A stretch of DNA of 64,000 nucleotides from Mytilus galloprovincialis (lineage: Eukaryota > Mollusca > Bivalvia > Mytilida > Mytilidae). The position numbers were made by a program, and so were the translations under genes. The DNA lies in NCBI RefSeq assembly GCF_965363235.1, contig NC_134845.1:67175261-67239260 (forward strand), read 5' to 3'. Position 1 is the stretch's first letter. Each line of letters opens with the position of its first letter. Positions 1,838 to 64,000 of the stretch are shown piece after piece. Under the pieces are notes generated by a model. That model saw only the letters and a program-made list of their open reading frames with translations. It was not told the DNA's origin and ran no database searches.

Positions 1838-2869
1838 TTAAGCTTCCGATCCTGAGTCATGATTGTACATGTACGTATTGTCGTTGTCTGCACTTTTGTT
1901 GGTAGAAGTGTCAGTTTGATCATTACTGAGTGGAGCTATATGTGATTCTGTTTGACTGTCAATGGGAATTGGTTGCAGTATTGATTGTGATATCTGCACA
2001 GAGTCTTCTGTTTCCGATTTATCCTCATCTGAATTGTCGTCTTCTGTGTCGTCACTTTCAATTAGGTGCGAATTACACTCTGCTTGTCTGTGTCCTTGTT
2101 TGTTACAGTGAAGACAAACCCAGTCATTTGGACAATGCGAAAATTTGTGACCTTTCTGTAGGCATTTATTGCATGAGATTTCAGCTTGATTGTGATTTTC
2201 TTGTCCTTGGTAAATAACTGTTGCTCTGTATTTACCAATAAGAACAGATCTCGGTAAAGCTTTACTCATAGAAGCTTCCATTGCGATTCTATCGCCAGTT
2301 TGGCAGTTTGATAACAGGCCATCTACCCACAATCGTTCTCTGTACATTTTAATAACCTCGCATCCGTGATATTCTAAGCTTCACTCAATCTGTCCGTCCC
2401 TGGCGGAACAAGGCACATTTTTTACACGTATTTTCAGGTAGGTTGGTCTTTCATTAACAATTATCCTTGGGTTTCTACTGTAAACCTGGATATATTTATT
2501 CCGAATTGTTATGCCAGATGTAAGGAGGGATTCTCTATCGATCTCAGAATCAAAATAGATTCTCCATAAACCTCGAACACGCTGCAATCCTTTAAGATGA
2601 CTGGCTGGGCATATTGTAGCGTCGATGGTTTTGTACAGTTCTATGTGTGTTAGAAACTGGTCTCTGCTTGGTTTAGTGTTGCCAAACAAGTCAGTTTCTA
2701 ATATGAAAACTGGCTTTACATCTTCAACATCATAATTGTTTTTGGTGTTTTGTTTTTGCAATATAGAAGAGTAAGTCTCGATGGTGTCCGCCATATTGTT
2801 TTTGTCATTGGTTTGGTTTACCTCTAAATTTTCATTTGTATTATTTGTATTATTTGCTGAATTTGACAT
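1838..2869 (-). pseudogene. Relic ORF1/Gag-like zinc-knuckle protein of a retroelement, probably non-LTR
   Basis: The minus strand encodes an Asn/Thr-rich N terminus, then a globular part (FILETDLFGNTKP...; YLKIRVKNVPC...), then two consecutive CX2CX4HX4C zinc knuckles (CNKCLQKGHKFSHC and CLHCNKQGHRQAEC), and an acidic Ser/Asp/Glu-rich tail. That order (possible RNA-binding fold, paired CCHC knuckles, acidic tail) is usual for ORF1 of molluscan LINE-type elements and for the ZCCHC3-like proteins derived from them. It would bind element RNA. The copy looks broken. No reverse transcriptase follows it on this strand. A Gag of an LTR element is the alternative and cannot be excluded from this piece. 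Confidence 0.6.
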
Positions 2870-33044: not shown

Positions 33045-34195
33045 GGAATTCTGATAAGAAAATCGTTTCCTCAGTCAGATAGTATCCCTCAACCATGTTA
33101 ACAAATATTCTTTAACAAAATTCTGTTAAAAGAAGATGTTTCCGCAGATTTATAGTATATTCTTAACAGAATTCTGATAAGAAGATTCTTTCCTCAGGTA
33201 GATAGTATGCTTAACAGAATTCTGATAAGAAAATCGTTTCCGCAGATATATAGTATATTCTTAACAGAATTCTGATAAGAAAAATATTTTCCTCAGTTAG
33301 ATATAATTCCTTAACAGAATTCTGATAAGAAAATCGTTTCGTTAGATAGATATAATTCCTTAACAGAATTCTGATAAGAAAATTGTTTCCTCAGGTCGAC
33401 AGATAGCTTAACAGAATTCTGATAAGAAAATTGTTTCCTCAGATAGATAGTTTGCTTAACAGAATTCTGATAAGAAACTTGTTTTCCCAAATAGATAGTA
33501 TCCCTTAACAGAATTCTGATAAGAATCTTGTTTCCCCAAATATAGAGTCTATTCTAAACAGAATTCTGATACGAATTCTGATAAGAAAATAGTTTTCTCA
33601 GATAGATAGTATCCCTTAACAGAATTCTGATAAGAAACTTGTTTTCCCAAATAGATAGTATCCCTTAACAGAATTCTGATAAGAAACTTGTTTCCCTAAA
33701 TATAGAGTCTATTCTAAACAGAATTCTGATAAGAAAATCGTTTCCCTAGATAGATAGTATATTCTAAACAGAATTTTCTGATAAGAAATTTGTTTCTTCC
33801 GATAGATAGTATCACTTAACAGAATTCTGATAAGATTTTTTCCCCAGATATACAGTATATTCTTAACAGAATTTTGATAAGAAAATGTTTTCCTCAAACA
33901 GATAGTACTATTAACAGAATGCTATTAAGAAAATAATTTCATTTGATAGATAGTTTTCTTAACAGAATTATGATAAGAAAAACGTTTTCTCGGATATATA
34001 ATATATTCTTATCAGAATTCTAACAGGAAAAAAGTTTCCTCAGATAGATTGAATTGTTATAGAATTCTGATAAGAAAATCATTTCCTCAGATATATCTAT
34101 ATCATTCTTAACAGAATTCTGATAAGAAATAGTTTACCTTAGATAGATAATATTCTTTATAGAGTTATGATAAACAGTTTTCTCAGTTTCATATA
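33045..34195. repeat. Minisatellite, ~50 bp unit, about 22 copies
   Basis: The core AACAGAATTCTGATAAGAAA recurs about every 45-60 bp with spacers of the type TCGTTTCCTCAGATAGATAG and TATTCTT/TATCCCTT. AGAATTCT inside each unit is an 8 bp palindrome. Copies decay toward both ends, as in arrays that turn over centrally. Not CRISPR-like: spacers are themselves repeated. Confidence 0.85.
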
Positions 34196-35598: not shown

Positions 35599-37530
35599 GG
35601 GACCGTTCAATATTTATCAGATGGATGGGCCGGTGCAAAATGGGGCGGGGCAAGCACTTTTTTTGTGGAAATATTTGGATGGGCCAGAACTTTTTTTAAA
35701 ATATTAAGTGGATGGGCCAGAACATATTTTATAGGAAATTTTTTTATCCATTTTATCGGTGTGTAAGAAATTTCTTTTACAGGCACTCAAAAACTGGTAG
35801 CTTGGTTCATTTCTGTCAACTTTAAGGATTTAATTAAGGATTAAAAAAGCTAAAAGTTTCTGTTCGGTCTATCTTATAAATTATTTTGACCTTATGGAAT
35901 ACCAAGTTGTTTAATAGTTTGGTGTATTGCTGTTAAATTTATGGATTTAATTAATAGGTAAGAAAAAAAGCTCAAATTTTTAGTTAGGGATACATTCAGA
36001 TAGTCAACTTTAATTTTTTTGTAAATTTTTCAAATCAACTTGGATTTTCAAAAACCTATACAGCTTATTCATTAATATATTGATCTTATAGGAAACCAGT
36101 TTGTTTGGTAGTTAGGTGTATTGCTGTTAAATTTATTGCTTTTATTAATAGGTAAGAAAAAAAGCTCAAATTTTCATTTTAGGCTAAAATTCAGATAGTC
36201 AACTTTAATTTTTTTTATAACTTTTTCAAACCAATCTGGATTTTCATAAAACTCAAGAGCTATCTCAATTATATATTGATCTTACAGAAAGCCAGTTTGT
36301 TTGGTACTTTGGTGTATTGCTGTCATTTTTATGGATTTTATAAATAGGTTGAAAAATCTAGAATTTTAAGTTTAGGCTGAATCTAGATAGTCATCTTTAA
36401 TGTTTTTTATAACTTTTTTAAATCAACCTGGATTTTCATAAAACTATACAGCCTTTTCATTTATATATCGAACTTACAGAACGCCACGTTGATTGGTAGT
36501 TTGGTGTATGTCTGTCATTCTTACGGATTAAATAACAAGGTTTAAGAAAAAGCTCAAATTTTCAGTTTATGCTAAATCCAGATAGTCATCTTTAATTTTT
36601 TTTTATAACTTTTTCAAATCAACATGGATTTCCATAAAACTTTACAGCTATAACATTTATATATTGATCTAAAAGAATGCCAAGTTGTTTTGTAGTTTGG
36701 TGTGCTGCTGTCATTCTTATGGATTTAATAAAAAGGTTTAAGAAAAAGCTAAATTTTCTGTTTTAGGTTATTTCAAGATAGTCATCTTTAAATTTGTTCA
36801 TAACTTTTTCAAATCAACTTGCATTTTCATAAAACTCTACTGCTAAATAATTTTTATATTGATCTTACTGAATGCCAGGCTGTTTAGTACTTTGTTTTTT
36901 TGCTGTCATTTTTATGGATTTAGTTAATAGCTTAAAAAAAAGCTGCAATTTTAAGTTTGGACCAAATTTGGATGGTGACTGGTCACCTTTACATTTTTTT
37001 TTAACTTTTTCAAATCAACTTAGATTTTCATATAACTGTACAGCTTTCTCATTTATATATCAATCTTACAGAATGCTAGTTTTTTGATAGTTTGGTGTTT
37101 AGTTGTCAAATTTAGGAAATTAATTAATAGGCGAAAAAGGCTGCATCATATTTAAAAACATGCCTGCCTATATTTGCTTAAAAGGACCATAATTTCTTTT
37201 TCCAAAAGTAGAACAGATAAAGGAATATTCATATTTGAACTAAATGTATACATATATATGGATTTAACTAGCACATTTTAAATTTTGTATTAACACCAAA
37301 GTTTATTCTTTGATTTCAAGACATAAAATTTTAAAAACTTTAAAATAGAAAAAGAACCTAAATCATTTTTGATTGTCTTATAGTTTTAGAGGGGCAAGGA
37401 CTTTTTTATAGATTTTTTTAGATGGGCAAGGACTTTTTTTCAGAATTTAAAAGTATGAGCGTTAGCTTTTTTAATGAAACAATATTAAGAATGCACCGGC
37501 CCATCCATCTGGTAAATATTGAACGGTCCC
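35599..37530. mobile_element. Inner TIR element (GGGACCGTTCAA ends) filled with tandem repeats, TAA target duplication
   Basis: Left end GGGACCGTTCAATATTTATC then AGATGGATGGGCCGG; right end the near-exact complement. TAA at 35596-35598 and 37531-37533. 1932 bp, no open frame for a transposase. Next to the left end GATGGGCCAGAAC-type words repeat; the same kind (GATGGGCAAGGAC) is found near the right end. The centre is a ~197 bp tandem array. Confidence 0.8.
35830..37095. repeat. ~197 bp tandem array inside the inner TIR element
   Basis: The word TTGGATTTTCATAAAACT (or close variants) recurs near 36040, 36236, 36428, 36623, 36819 and 37019, with ATTGATCTTACAGAATGCCA and TTTGGTGTATTGCTGTCATT in between. 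About six units, moderately diverged. Confidence 0.8.
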
Positions 37531-61089: not shown

Positions 61090-61467
61090 GTATGTTAACA
61101 CTATTATTATGCACACAAGGAACGGCATTCATGTCCTATTCAATACCATTTTTGTGAGTAAAATAATTCTGGTCCAAATCCTTTCTTATTCATGTATATA
61201 TTCTGCATAATTTGGTTATAATTCTATTTTGAGGCTAGTCACAATATTGCTGTATATTTTTAGATATACAATGTCCATGATTCATGTTAAGCTGATTGCT
61301 CGAAAAAATAATTAAAAAAAAATCCTATTGAAGTTTTCAGGAAGAGTTGTTATTACGAATGTCATTGATAAAACTATTTAAAAGAACGGACAGGTTTGCA
61401 TTTTCGTCGTTTGTAGAAAATGTACGGTCTTTAAATATTTTACATACAGCATCATCACGGGTGTAAT

Positions 61468-62581
61468 TACGGGGCGCCGAATGGGACTCTTGTGGTTTTG
61501 TACTCGAAATTCAATTTTGTACTGACAAAAGTGACTTTTGTTCAACAAATGAGTTCAGTTTAACAAAATTTGTAGCATACTACAAATTTAAAATTTTGTC
61601 ATACAAAATTATCTTTCAGTGGACAAAAGTCACTTTCGTCATGACAAAATTCATTTTTGTTACACACTCAGACTTGACTTTTGTTACCTTATTTGAAAAT
61701 TAGGCGACAACAGTCAATTTTGTATGCAAATAAGTTAAGTTTGGATTCTGTGAACTAATTTGCATACACAATTGACTTTTCTGAGACAAAATTGACTTTT
61801 GTGAGACAAAATTGACTTTTGTGAGACAAAATTGACAAAATTGAATTTTGTGAGACAAAATTGATAAAATTGAATTTTGTCTCACAAAATTGAGACAAAA
61901 TTGAATTTTGTCACACAAAATTGAGACAAAATTCAATTTTGTCAATTTTCTCTCACAAAAATGAATTTTGTCGTCACAAAATTGACTTTTGTCGTTACAA
62001 AATTGAATTTTGTCGTTACAAAATTATATTTTGTCGTCACAAAATTGACTTTTGTGAGACAAAATTGACAAAATTGAATTTTGTCTCACAAAAGTCGATT
62101 TTATTATCACAAAATTGACAAAATTGAATTTTGTCTCACAATTGTCATTTTTGTCTCACAAAAGTCAATTTTGTCTCACAAAAGTCAATTTTGTCTCACA
62201 AATGTCTATTTTGTCACACAAAATTGAATCTTGTCTCACACAATTGACTTTTGTGTTTTTAATTTCCATATCAGGTAACAAAAGTCAATTTTGTATGCAA
62301 ATAGGTTTATATTTGCATACCTTTTTGACAAAATTGACTTTTGTCAAAATTGACTTTCGTCAAAATTGACTTTTGTCATGACAAAAATGAATTTTGTCTA
62401 CAAAAATGAATTTTGTCATGACAAAAACGAATTTTGTCTATAAAAATGAATTTTGTCATCACAAAATTGAAGTTCTCATAAAACAAGTCTGTATCACATA
62501 GTTTTGTAAGACAAAAATGATTTTGTTATGACAGAATTGAATTTTGTACAAAACCACAAGAGTCCCATTCGGCGCCCCGTA
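61468..62581. mobile_element. 1.1 kb TIR element composed of TTTTGTC/GACAAAA palindromic words, 5 bp target duplication
   Basis: Inverted ends TACGGGGCGCCGAATGGGAC then TCTTGTGGTTTTGTAC match exactly for ~36 bp. GTAAT is duplicated at 61463-61467 and 62582-62586. The interior is dozens of TTTTGT and ACAAAA words, many as TTTTGTC/GACAAAA, arranged as nested hairpins. A pair of inverted ATGCAAAT words lies ~255 bp from each end (61722-61767; 62293-62324). No coding capacity. Open frames through it are low-complexity artefacts. Confidence 0.8.
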
Positions 62582-62874
62582 GTAATTGCCATCGTTTCAA
62601 TATTAAGATCATACTGTATTAGGAAAACAGGTATTGATAGTAATTTTGTAAAAAAGGTGTAATATATATGTATTGACCCTACCATGAATACAAACATGTG
62701 TTTCTCAAAATTGGCAAGTGGCACATGTAGAGTAGGATCTGCTTAATCTTCCGGAGCACATGATATCACCCCAAGTGTTTTGTAGAGCTCGTGTTGCTTA
62801 GTCTTTATTTTTCATATTTTGTGTTTTGTGTACTTTTAATTTGTTATTTTGTATCTGTATCTTTTTAGCTCAAC

Positions 62875-63087: not shown

Positions 63088-64000
63088 CGCAAAAATGGAA
63101 AATTTTTTGGTCGTATATTGGTATCACGTTGGCGTCGTCGTCTGCGTCGTCGTCGTCGTCGTCGTCGGCGTCGGCCGAATACTTTTAGTTTTCGCACTCT
63201 AACTTTAGTAAAAGTGAATAGAAATCTATGAAATTTTAACACAAGGTTTATGACTACAAAAGGAAGGTTGAATTGATTTTGGGAGTTTTGGTTCCAACAT
63301 TTTAGGAATTAGGGGCCAAAAAGGGCCCAAATAAGCATTTTCTTGGTTTTCGCACAATAACTTTAGTATAATTGAATAGAAATCAATGAAATTTAAACAC
63401 ACAAGGTTTATGACCACAAAAGGAAGGTTGGGATTGATTTTGGGAGTTAAGGTCCCAACAGTTTAGGAATTAGGGGCCAAAAAGGAGCCCAAATAAGCAT
63501 TTTTCTTGGTTTTCGCACCATAACTTTAGTACAAGTAAATAGAAATCTATGAAATTTAAACACAAGGTTTATGACCATAAAAGGAAGGTTGGGATTGATT
63601 TTGGGAATTTAGGTCCCAACAGTTTAGGAATTAGGGGCCAAAAAGGAGCCCAAATAAGCATTTTTCTTGGTTTTCGCACCATAACTTTAGTATAAGTAAA
63701 TAGAAATCTATCAAATTAAACACAAGGTTTATGACCATAAAAGGAAGGTTGAGATTGATTTTGGGAGTTTTGATCCCAACAGTTTAGGAATAAGGGGCCC
63801 AAAGGGTCCAAAATTAAACTTTGTTTGATTTCATCAAAAATTGAATAATTGGGGTTCTTTGATATGCCGAATCTAACTGTGTATGTAGATTCTTAATTTC
63901 AAATTGGTCTACATTTTTTTGATTTTAACAAAAATTGAATCCTTGTGGTTCTTTGATATGCTGAATCTAAAAATGTACTTAGATTTTTGATTATTGGCCC
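63088..64000. repeat. GGTCGTAT family element with (GTC)n run and ~160 bp tandem units, open at window end
   Basis: Opens ATACGACCGCAAAAATGG, then a GTCGTC tract (63133-63172), then units containing TTTTCGCAC.ATAACTTTAG, CACAAGGTTTATGACCA and GGAATTAGGGGCCAAAAAGG at about 63190, 63345, 63510 and 63675. Arg-rich frames across the GTC tract are artefacts. Confidence 0.75.

Follow-up and report, generated by a model that had tools for sequence, protein, structure and literature searches.

IS3EU/GingerRoot transposons offer the closest described comparison for the locus treated here. Complete IS3EU families all end in TA..TA and usually generate 6-bp target-site duplications, and the fungal ones have TAYGG..CCRTA termini and terminal inverted repeats (TIRs) longer than 30 bp, according to the passages of PMC12730594 and PMC10045372 that deal with element ends. 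In oyster, the satellite-DNA table of PMC8268682 gives CgiSat35 and CgiSat47 as resembling IS3EU, and has the figure 21 in the size column for CgiSat43, a satellite left unassigned there. Tetris, from Drosophila virilis, is a foldback element, apparently non-autonomous, with TIRs and internal tandem repeats (PMC4079207). Ginger1 and Ginger2 are credited with TGTNR termini and a duplication of mostly 4 bp. Transib elements have CAC.. termini, and the terminal bases of hAT elements are Y-A-R-N-G. A bivalve MITE with internal tandem repeats reportedly occurs in Donax, to go by the title of a 2013 work by Satovic and Plohl.

Here we describe a non-autonomous DNA transposon, 'the unit', at positions 61468-62581 of a 64,000-nucleotide stretch of Mytilus galloprovincialis DNA—the whole stretch analysed, referred to below as 'the window'. 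The unit's termini fit IS3EU but its duplication does not, and the genome was therefore searched for integrase-type transposases. Because the 6-bp feature is absent, we call the family 'IS3EU-like' rather than a confirmed member. We think it probable that the unit is moved by an IS3EU/GingerRoot-like DDE transposase, and that its interior is an enlarged array of transposase-recognition sites.

Structure of the unit

The unit has a G+C content of 29%. From left to right, it and its flanks comprise the following:

61463-61467, no strand: left 5-bp target-site duplication, GTAAT; the 5-bp flanks are identical in 51 of 59 family records
61468-61503, + strand: left TIR of 36 bp, TACGGGGCGCC.., the 'B end', then TCGA/TCAA; 100% complementary to the right arm
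61504-61765, + strand: B-end subterminal region of palindromic words, closed by the octamer pair ATGCAAAT / ATTTGCAT; words diverge less than linkers family-wide
61766-62255, no strand: central array, its words quasi-palindromes of ~17 bp (ACAAAATTGAATTTTGT with variants of it), most of them 20, 21 or 29-31 bp apart
62256-62545, + strand: A-end subterminal region of palindromic words, with the octamer pair ATGCAAAT / ATTTGCAT
62546-62581, - strand: right TIR of 36 bp, the 'A end', then AAAA; 100% complementary to the left arm
62582-62586, no strand: right 5-bp target-site duplication, GTAAT, the same letters as the left flank

A preliminary description, made from the letters alone, had recorded an exact inverted repeat of ~36 bp at the ends, a 5-bp target duplication and no gene inside. 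All of this stands: the arms are complementary at every one of their 36 nt, GTAAT is found at both flanks, and no ORF in the unit reaches 150 aa, the longest stop-to-stop frame being 107 aa. TIRs, a duplication of constant length, the lack of a gene and many copies make it a MITE, or non-autonomous DNA transposon. Its long inverted repeats, built of short repeats, also make it a Foldback element, which is a structural label and not a lineage.

The 'dozens' of TTTTGT and ACAAAA words noticed at the outset number 33 and 34 in the 1042-bp interior. Dinucleotide shuffles (500) of the interior gave means of 5.1 and 4.9, and maxima of 12 and 11. The composite word ACAAAA-N5-TTTTGT occurs 21 times against 0.03 expected, and at most once in any of 500 such shuffles. 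The palindromy of the unit's word is strong, being reached by 4 shuffles in 1000. In spectral analysis the 36 words of the unit peak at 10.05 bp, where the power is 19.4 (the maximum among 500 random placements is 11.8). The symmetry claimed for the unit at a larger scale was borne out, too: the 73 nt at 61766-61838 are 93% complementary to 62142-62214. Inverted octamers, said to lie ~255 bp from each end, are present at both, where they form one inverted pair per end (ATGCAAAT at 61724-61731 and ATTTGCAT at 61758-61765 on the left; ATGCAAAT at 62295-62302 and ATTTGCAT at 62311-62318 on the right). The left ATGCAAAT is not fixed in the family, however, and lies 227-256 bases from its end in only 14 of 54 oriented elements. 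As expected of an inverted array, single strands are predicted to fold very strongly: the first 990 bases, as DNA, reach -276 kcal/mol, versus -122 +/- 6.5 for 20 shuffles (z -23.7).

The window holds other features as well. Two adjacent ORFs at 1838-2869 (- strand), one with CCHC zinc-knuckle motifs, look like ORF1 of a non-LTR retrotransposon. Tandem arrays lie at 33105-34173 (48-50 bp, 21.5 copies), at 35882-37131 (~196 bp, 6.4 copies) and, just to the right of the unit, at about 63188-63803 (161 bp, 3.8 copies).

A mobile family

The preliminary description allowed that the termini might occur only here, in which case there would be no mobile family. The reverse is true. The first 22 bases of the unit have 362 + 373 matches with at most one mismatch in the 1.385-Gb genome—735 family ends, both strands together—and the reversed control has 0 + 0. 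A DNA search of the genome gave at least 40 matching places, the window included (the best 40 of 614 candidates scored). We read 60 loci for the family (L001 and L009-L067); three (L032, L046 and L047) had no end pair and two gave two records each, making 59 element records. Identical 5-bp flanks in 51 of these extend to the family what had been said of the unit, that it moved as a piece. In a single record of the 59, L024, the identical flanks are of 6 bp instead. The seven records without identical flanks are composite or nested (L040 and L066), differ at one base in five (L041, L045, L051 and L062) or at more than one (L039). At target sites, G and C are weakly and symmetrically favored at positions 7-8 to the left and to the right. 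Ends, duplications and copy number together establish that this is a mobile family.

Family ends are of two types: TIR followed by AAAA (A), and TIR followed by TCAA or TCGA (B). Because the ends can be told apart, the elements have an orientation. Oriented records number 54; left out were the composites L040_1, L066_1 and L066_2, the duplicate L057_2 (of L057_1), and L035_1, whose end type is unclear. The oriented elements span 644-1616 bp, and the number of words varies with length. At L057, two 744-bp copies lie 6.7 kb apart with identical 15-bp flanks, and are probably a tandem segmental duplication that carried the element along. A 50-bp satellite of ~96% identity lies near a family copy at L069:6101-7000.

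Spacing and divergence of the words

Counting words with at most two substitutions in their arms, the 54 oriented elements hold 2028 words, separated by 1974 spacings that, the copies being related, are not independent. The commonest spacings are 20 bp (35%), 21 bp (19%) and 30 bp (16%), and the remainder fall mostly near 19, 29, 39-40, 50, 59, 71 and 80 bp. An array of 20 bp yields a 10-bp harmonic by itself, and so it is the odd multiples (30, 50 and 71) that give real support to a half-unit of ~10 bp. Periodicity exceeded the null maximum in all six elements tested, in one of them barely (11.6 versus 11.2).

The number of words varies, from 17 to 53 in six copies counted. Two copies with 99.1% identity, L014 and L050, are nonetheless set apart by gaps of 9, 19, 20, 31 and 51 bases. 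In 27 close pairs there are 135 gaps of 8 bases or more, including 28 of 19-22 bases and 46 of 8-12 bases, the latter perhaps in part alignment artefacts. Between copies that are 99% identical, array length changes by unit steps; how units come and go is an inference.

Over 300 bases inward from each end, with CpG columns omitted for words and linkers, words diverge by 1.4% (B) and 1.9% (A), linkers by 5.2% and 4.4%, and TIRs by 1.5% and 1.1%. The gap between words and linkers persists in A/T columns alone (P = 0.003 and 0.008), P values that are indicative only, since the copies are related and the A-end alignment is poor in places (two blocks have mean column identities of 0.80-0.82). The lower divergence of words could partly reflect composition, alignment or homogenisation.

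Hairpin-based copying, one of two readings proposed earlier, would be expected to alter the two arms of a word in step, or to invert the word. In 810 aligned words from the 27 close pairs, 378 arm changes are single and 43 double, with 7 of the 43 compensatory, and 6 of 194 core changes are inversions. Stems at the well-aligned B end do show a small excess of covariation (5 of 9 double changes complementary, versus a mean of 0.27 and a maximum of 2 in 200 shuffles), for which common descent could suffice. At the A end, the first 125 bases have one double change, which is not complementary. Arms and cores thus mostly change singly and without inversion, and hairpin-driven copying, judged by arm concert, core inversion and stem covariation, is weakly supported at best.

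Relatives that carry a transposase gene

A search of the genome with PF24764, a candidate profile that we take to be a marker of IS3EU, found at least 154 matches (the best 150 of 394 candidates scored). Transposases of this kind are found here in elements with TA..TA ends and 6-bp duplications. We read 33 transposase loci, in stretches of 1.2-5.0 kb; they are not a random sample, 26 coming from the PF24764 list and 7 by similarity to the protein of the L098 family, described below. At 12 of the 33 an array of at least seven copies, with a period of 19-24 bp, stands beside the transposase gene. The period is 21 bp in 11 of these and 23 bp in one. The other 21 loci have no such array within the stretch read, and the same test on the 62.9 kb of the window outside the unit detected none.

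The 12 loci include repeats of the same families, and their arrays are of about five word types: CTATATATGCACATAG (L077, L085 and L089), CTATTATAAGATGGTGG (L083, L084 and L088), ACATCATGTAATAAA (L082), TTGTGCGCACAA and related words (L098, L122 and L124), and AGATGTAAAGTCTAGCGCTGG (L121 and L123). What these loci have in common is an array of ~21 bp; palindromy is clear in some families only. Per 1000 shuffles, the palindromy of the word is reached by 18 for L124 and 30 for L098, is borderline for L122 (60) and L082 (77), and is at the level of chance for L121 (173), L077 (341) and L084 (444). Shuffles for these last three rule out that all of the relatives' arrays are palindromic. The word pattern of the window unit has one occurrence in the 33 loci, in L078.

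One of the array-bearing elements, L077, is complete. Its ends are TATGGAACGCCGTAG... (TATGG..CCATA), its 6-bp duplication is CATATA, and its inverted arms, 310 nt and 100% complementary, hold 21-bp units. It has a 450-aa ORF that matches PF24764 at 2.2e-72, with sub-threshold matches to helix-turn-helix domains. Five other PF24764 loci (L074, L075, L076, L078 and L079) have no convincing TA..TA terminal pair in the stretches read. Near a further PF24764 match, at L093:990-1341, is a compact unit with TATGGTGGCCGGATGCGGCC inverted ends that is full of CGAAA/TTTCG words; possibly this is another all-word non-autonomous element. In one PF24764 lineage, mostly of 436-aa frames, two convergent copies lie ~13 kb apart (G000:C1:105984422-105997982; L095 and L128), an arrangement found at 11 places (e.g. 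C3:9676726/9689983, C7:51844552/51857973 and C11:27453706/27466834). The 2 kb outside each gene of the C1 pair are inverted copies with 99.75% identity, which suggests that giant inverted repeats enclose the gene, in an element of more than 17 kb. The ends of this C1 element were not found.

The closest relative of the unit is the L098 family. Its ends, TACGGAGCCCCGCTAGGGAC, are identical to those of the unit at 15 of 20 terminal bases, the best of the four families compared (13 for L124, 12 for L077 and 11 for L084). Beyond the TA, the agreement is 13 of 18, for which P is 3.4e-5 if p = 0.25 and 2.7e-4 if p = 0.3. At two mismatches or fewer there are 99 + 112 L098-family ends genome-wide, and none for the control. 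Eleven of 12 elements whose ends were read have a 6-bp duplication. Three copies with the same 370-aa frame have ends 14.4, 14.2 and 16.7 kb apart, and each has a 6-bp duplication (C3:62987754-63002116, C2:111294580-111308764 and C6:56899771-56916468; the transposase is near one end). The C3 copy has arrays of TTGTGCGCACAA, with a period of 21-22 bp, at both of its ends; in the other two copies such an array occurs at the far end. L106-L108, which are 2.4-3.3 kb long and were read whole, have shorter arrays at both ends, a non-array core and no frame above 102 aa.

A gene-carrying partner with the unit's own TIR was looked for by six end-pattern searches, for ends that share the terminal bases and depart later. 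These listed 8, 15, 13, 5, 3 and 10 matches—54 in all, two of them common to two patterns—and 100 of the 735 family ends were listed by place. No autonomous element with this TIR emerged among the 54: 13 departing ends lie in read loci (L022, L024, L035, L040, L043, L047, L066 and L068-L073) and are copies or fragments of the gene-less family, and the other 41 are matches of letters only. The viral contigs searched gave 0 matches. A rare autonomous partner could have been missed, or may be extinct.

How the unit might move, and what else it might be

Since some gene-carrying transposons of this genome have similar arrays beside the enzyme gene, the enzyme probably lands on the palindromes, and we treat the words as putative transposase-binding sites. 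An IS3EU-like enzyme would then have moved this family. We picture a DDE transposase of the IS3EU/GingerRoot kind that would cut and paste the unit in trans. The interior would not be a worn-out gene, but a subterminal recognition array expanded to fill the whole element: ~36 quasi-palindromic words, with half-sites of ~10 bp, held in helical register. The transposase, probably as dimers by way of its N-terminal helix-turn-helix, would load many times on one face of the DNA, and the multiply loaded enzyme would bring the two ends of the unit together. Where gene-carrying relatives have an array beside the transposase gene, only the array would remain in the unit, lengthening or shortening by unit steps. 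The observations behind this picture are the design and spacing of the words, their lower divergence, the arrays beside PF24764 genes, and the similarity of the ends to those of one such family.

Might the unit be a non-autonomous element of some other superfamily with 5-bp duplications, most plausibly hAT5, with words that are hAT-type subterminal repeats and a likeness to IS3EU that is convergent? Duplications of 5 bp, which the family has in 51 of 59 records, are characteristic of hAT5 as that group is summarized in PMC12730594. Subterminal repeats are reported, moreover, to matter for one domesticated hAT transposase, Kat1. We nevertheless consider such an origin unlikely. TACGG misfits the hAT consensus, in which the third base is A or G; this base is C in nearly all ends of the family records, which therefore lack hAT-type terminal bases. 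The unit's ends match TAYGG..CCRTA, and 15 of their 20 terminal bases are those of a PF24764 family with a similar array design.

The words might, alternatively, have no function, the unit being a Foldback element or MITE of unspecified superfamily filled by a neutral satellite that arose through replication slippage or hairpin-mediated copying. Much about the arrays would suit this: element lengths of 644-1616 bp with matching word number, indels between close copies that are often near 10, 20, 30 or 40 bp, the very strong predicted folding (z -23.7, 20 shuffles), and the five complementary double changes at the B end where shuffling gives a mean of 0.27. A neutral satellite does not account as well for words whose divergence is almost as low as that of the TIR, and 2-4 times lower than that of linkers, nor for their register at ~10-bp steps. 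Several families, moreover, keep ~21-bp arrays of different sequence beside the transposase gene, and word arms seldom change in concert (7/43). On balance we find this explanation improbable. Much more improbable still is that the element is kept for a structured RNA product, such as a small-RNA precursor. The strongly folded RNA proposed earlier has the strong predicted fold and the inverted parts of the array in its favor, and nothing beyond foldability supports a functional RNA: no Rfam match in the window attains its family's gathering score, the lower divergence follows the words, and covariation is weak.

If the unit is, as we prefer, a recognition array moved by an IS3EU-like transposase, a wider proposal suggests itself, possible though somewhat doubtful. 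The integrase-type superfamily may mark its ends not by TIRs alone, but by TIRs together with a family-specific 'address' of ~21 bp, or two helical turns, and the unit may be an all-address parasite, shifted to a 5-bp duplication, that out-captures (and perhaps titrates) the transposase. Each family would then have a private word, palindromic in some families, that is read by its own transposase, and the unit would have traded its gene for some 36 putative binding sites. This bears on two open questions: how a transposase distinguishes its own ends from those of other elements, and what lets some gene-less elements outcompete those they feed on. Because several families in one genome have one ~21-bp geometry and different words, the specificity of word for transposase is directly testable. 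The unit also exemplifies an element stripped down to putative recognition sites, which vary in number.

Comparison with known systems

The preliminary description knew of no named family with this design. None of the literature matches listed contradicts this, but the design does not stand alone: 12 of the 33 loci have similar arrays of 21-23 bp. Nothing on this family, or on 21-bp IS3EU arrays, was among those matches, which do not include the GingerRoot paper and so do not establish absence from print. The terms 'subterminal' and '21 bp' are absent from the main texts of PMC12730594 and PMC10045372; 'tandem' and 'palindrom' appear once each in that of PMC12730594, in other contexts.

The family ends do not match the termini and duplication length of Ginger1 and Ginger2, nor the CAC.. 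termini of Transib. Tetris is like the unit in being apparently non-autonomous and in having terminal inverted repeats with tandem repeats inside. Its units, however, are ~220 bp (PMC4079207), whereas those of the window unit are ~20 bp, palindromic and evenly phased. The Donax element, by its title only, is reportedly similar in being a bivalve MITE with tandem repeats inside.

The likeness to IS3EU/GingerRoot goes further. TACGG..CCGTA fits TAYGG..CCRTA, the 36-bp TIR exceeds 30 bp, and array-bearing relatives in this genome encode an integrase-type DDE transposase. The unit differs in having no gene and an interior that is wholly array, and the family differs in its duplication: 51 of 59 records have 5 bp, and one has the 6 bp usual for IS3EU. 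The L098 family is similar in 15 of 20 terminal bases and in the 21-22-bp palindrome array inside its ends. It is distinct in its 6-bp duplication, its word TTGTGCGCACAA, the transposase of its 14-17 kb copies and the non-array core of its short ones. Set beside L106-L108, the window unit reads as a further step, one at which the array is everything.
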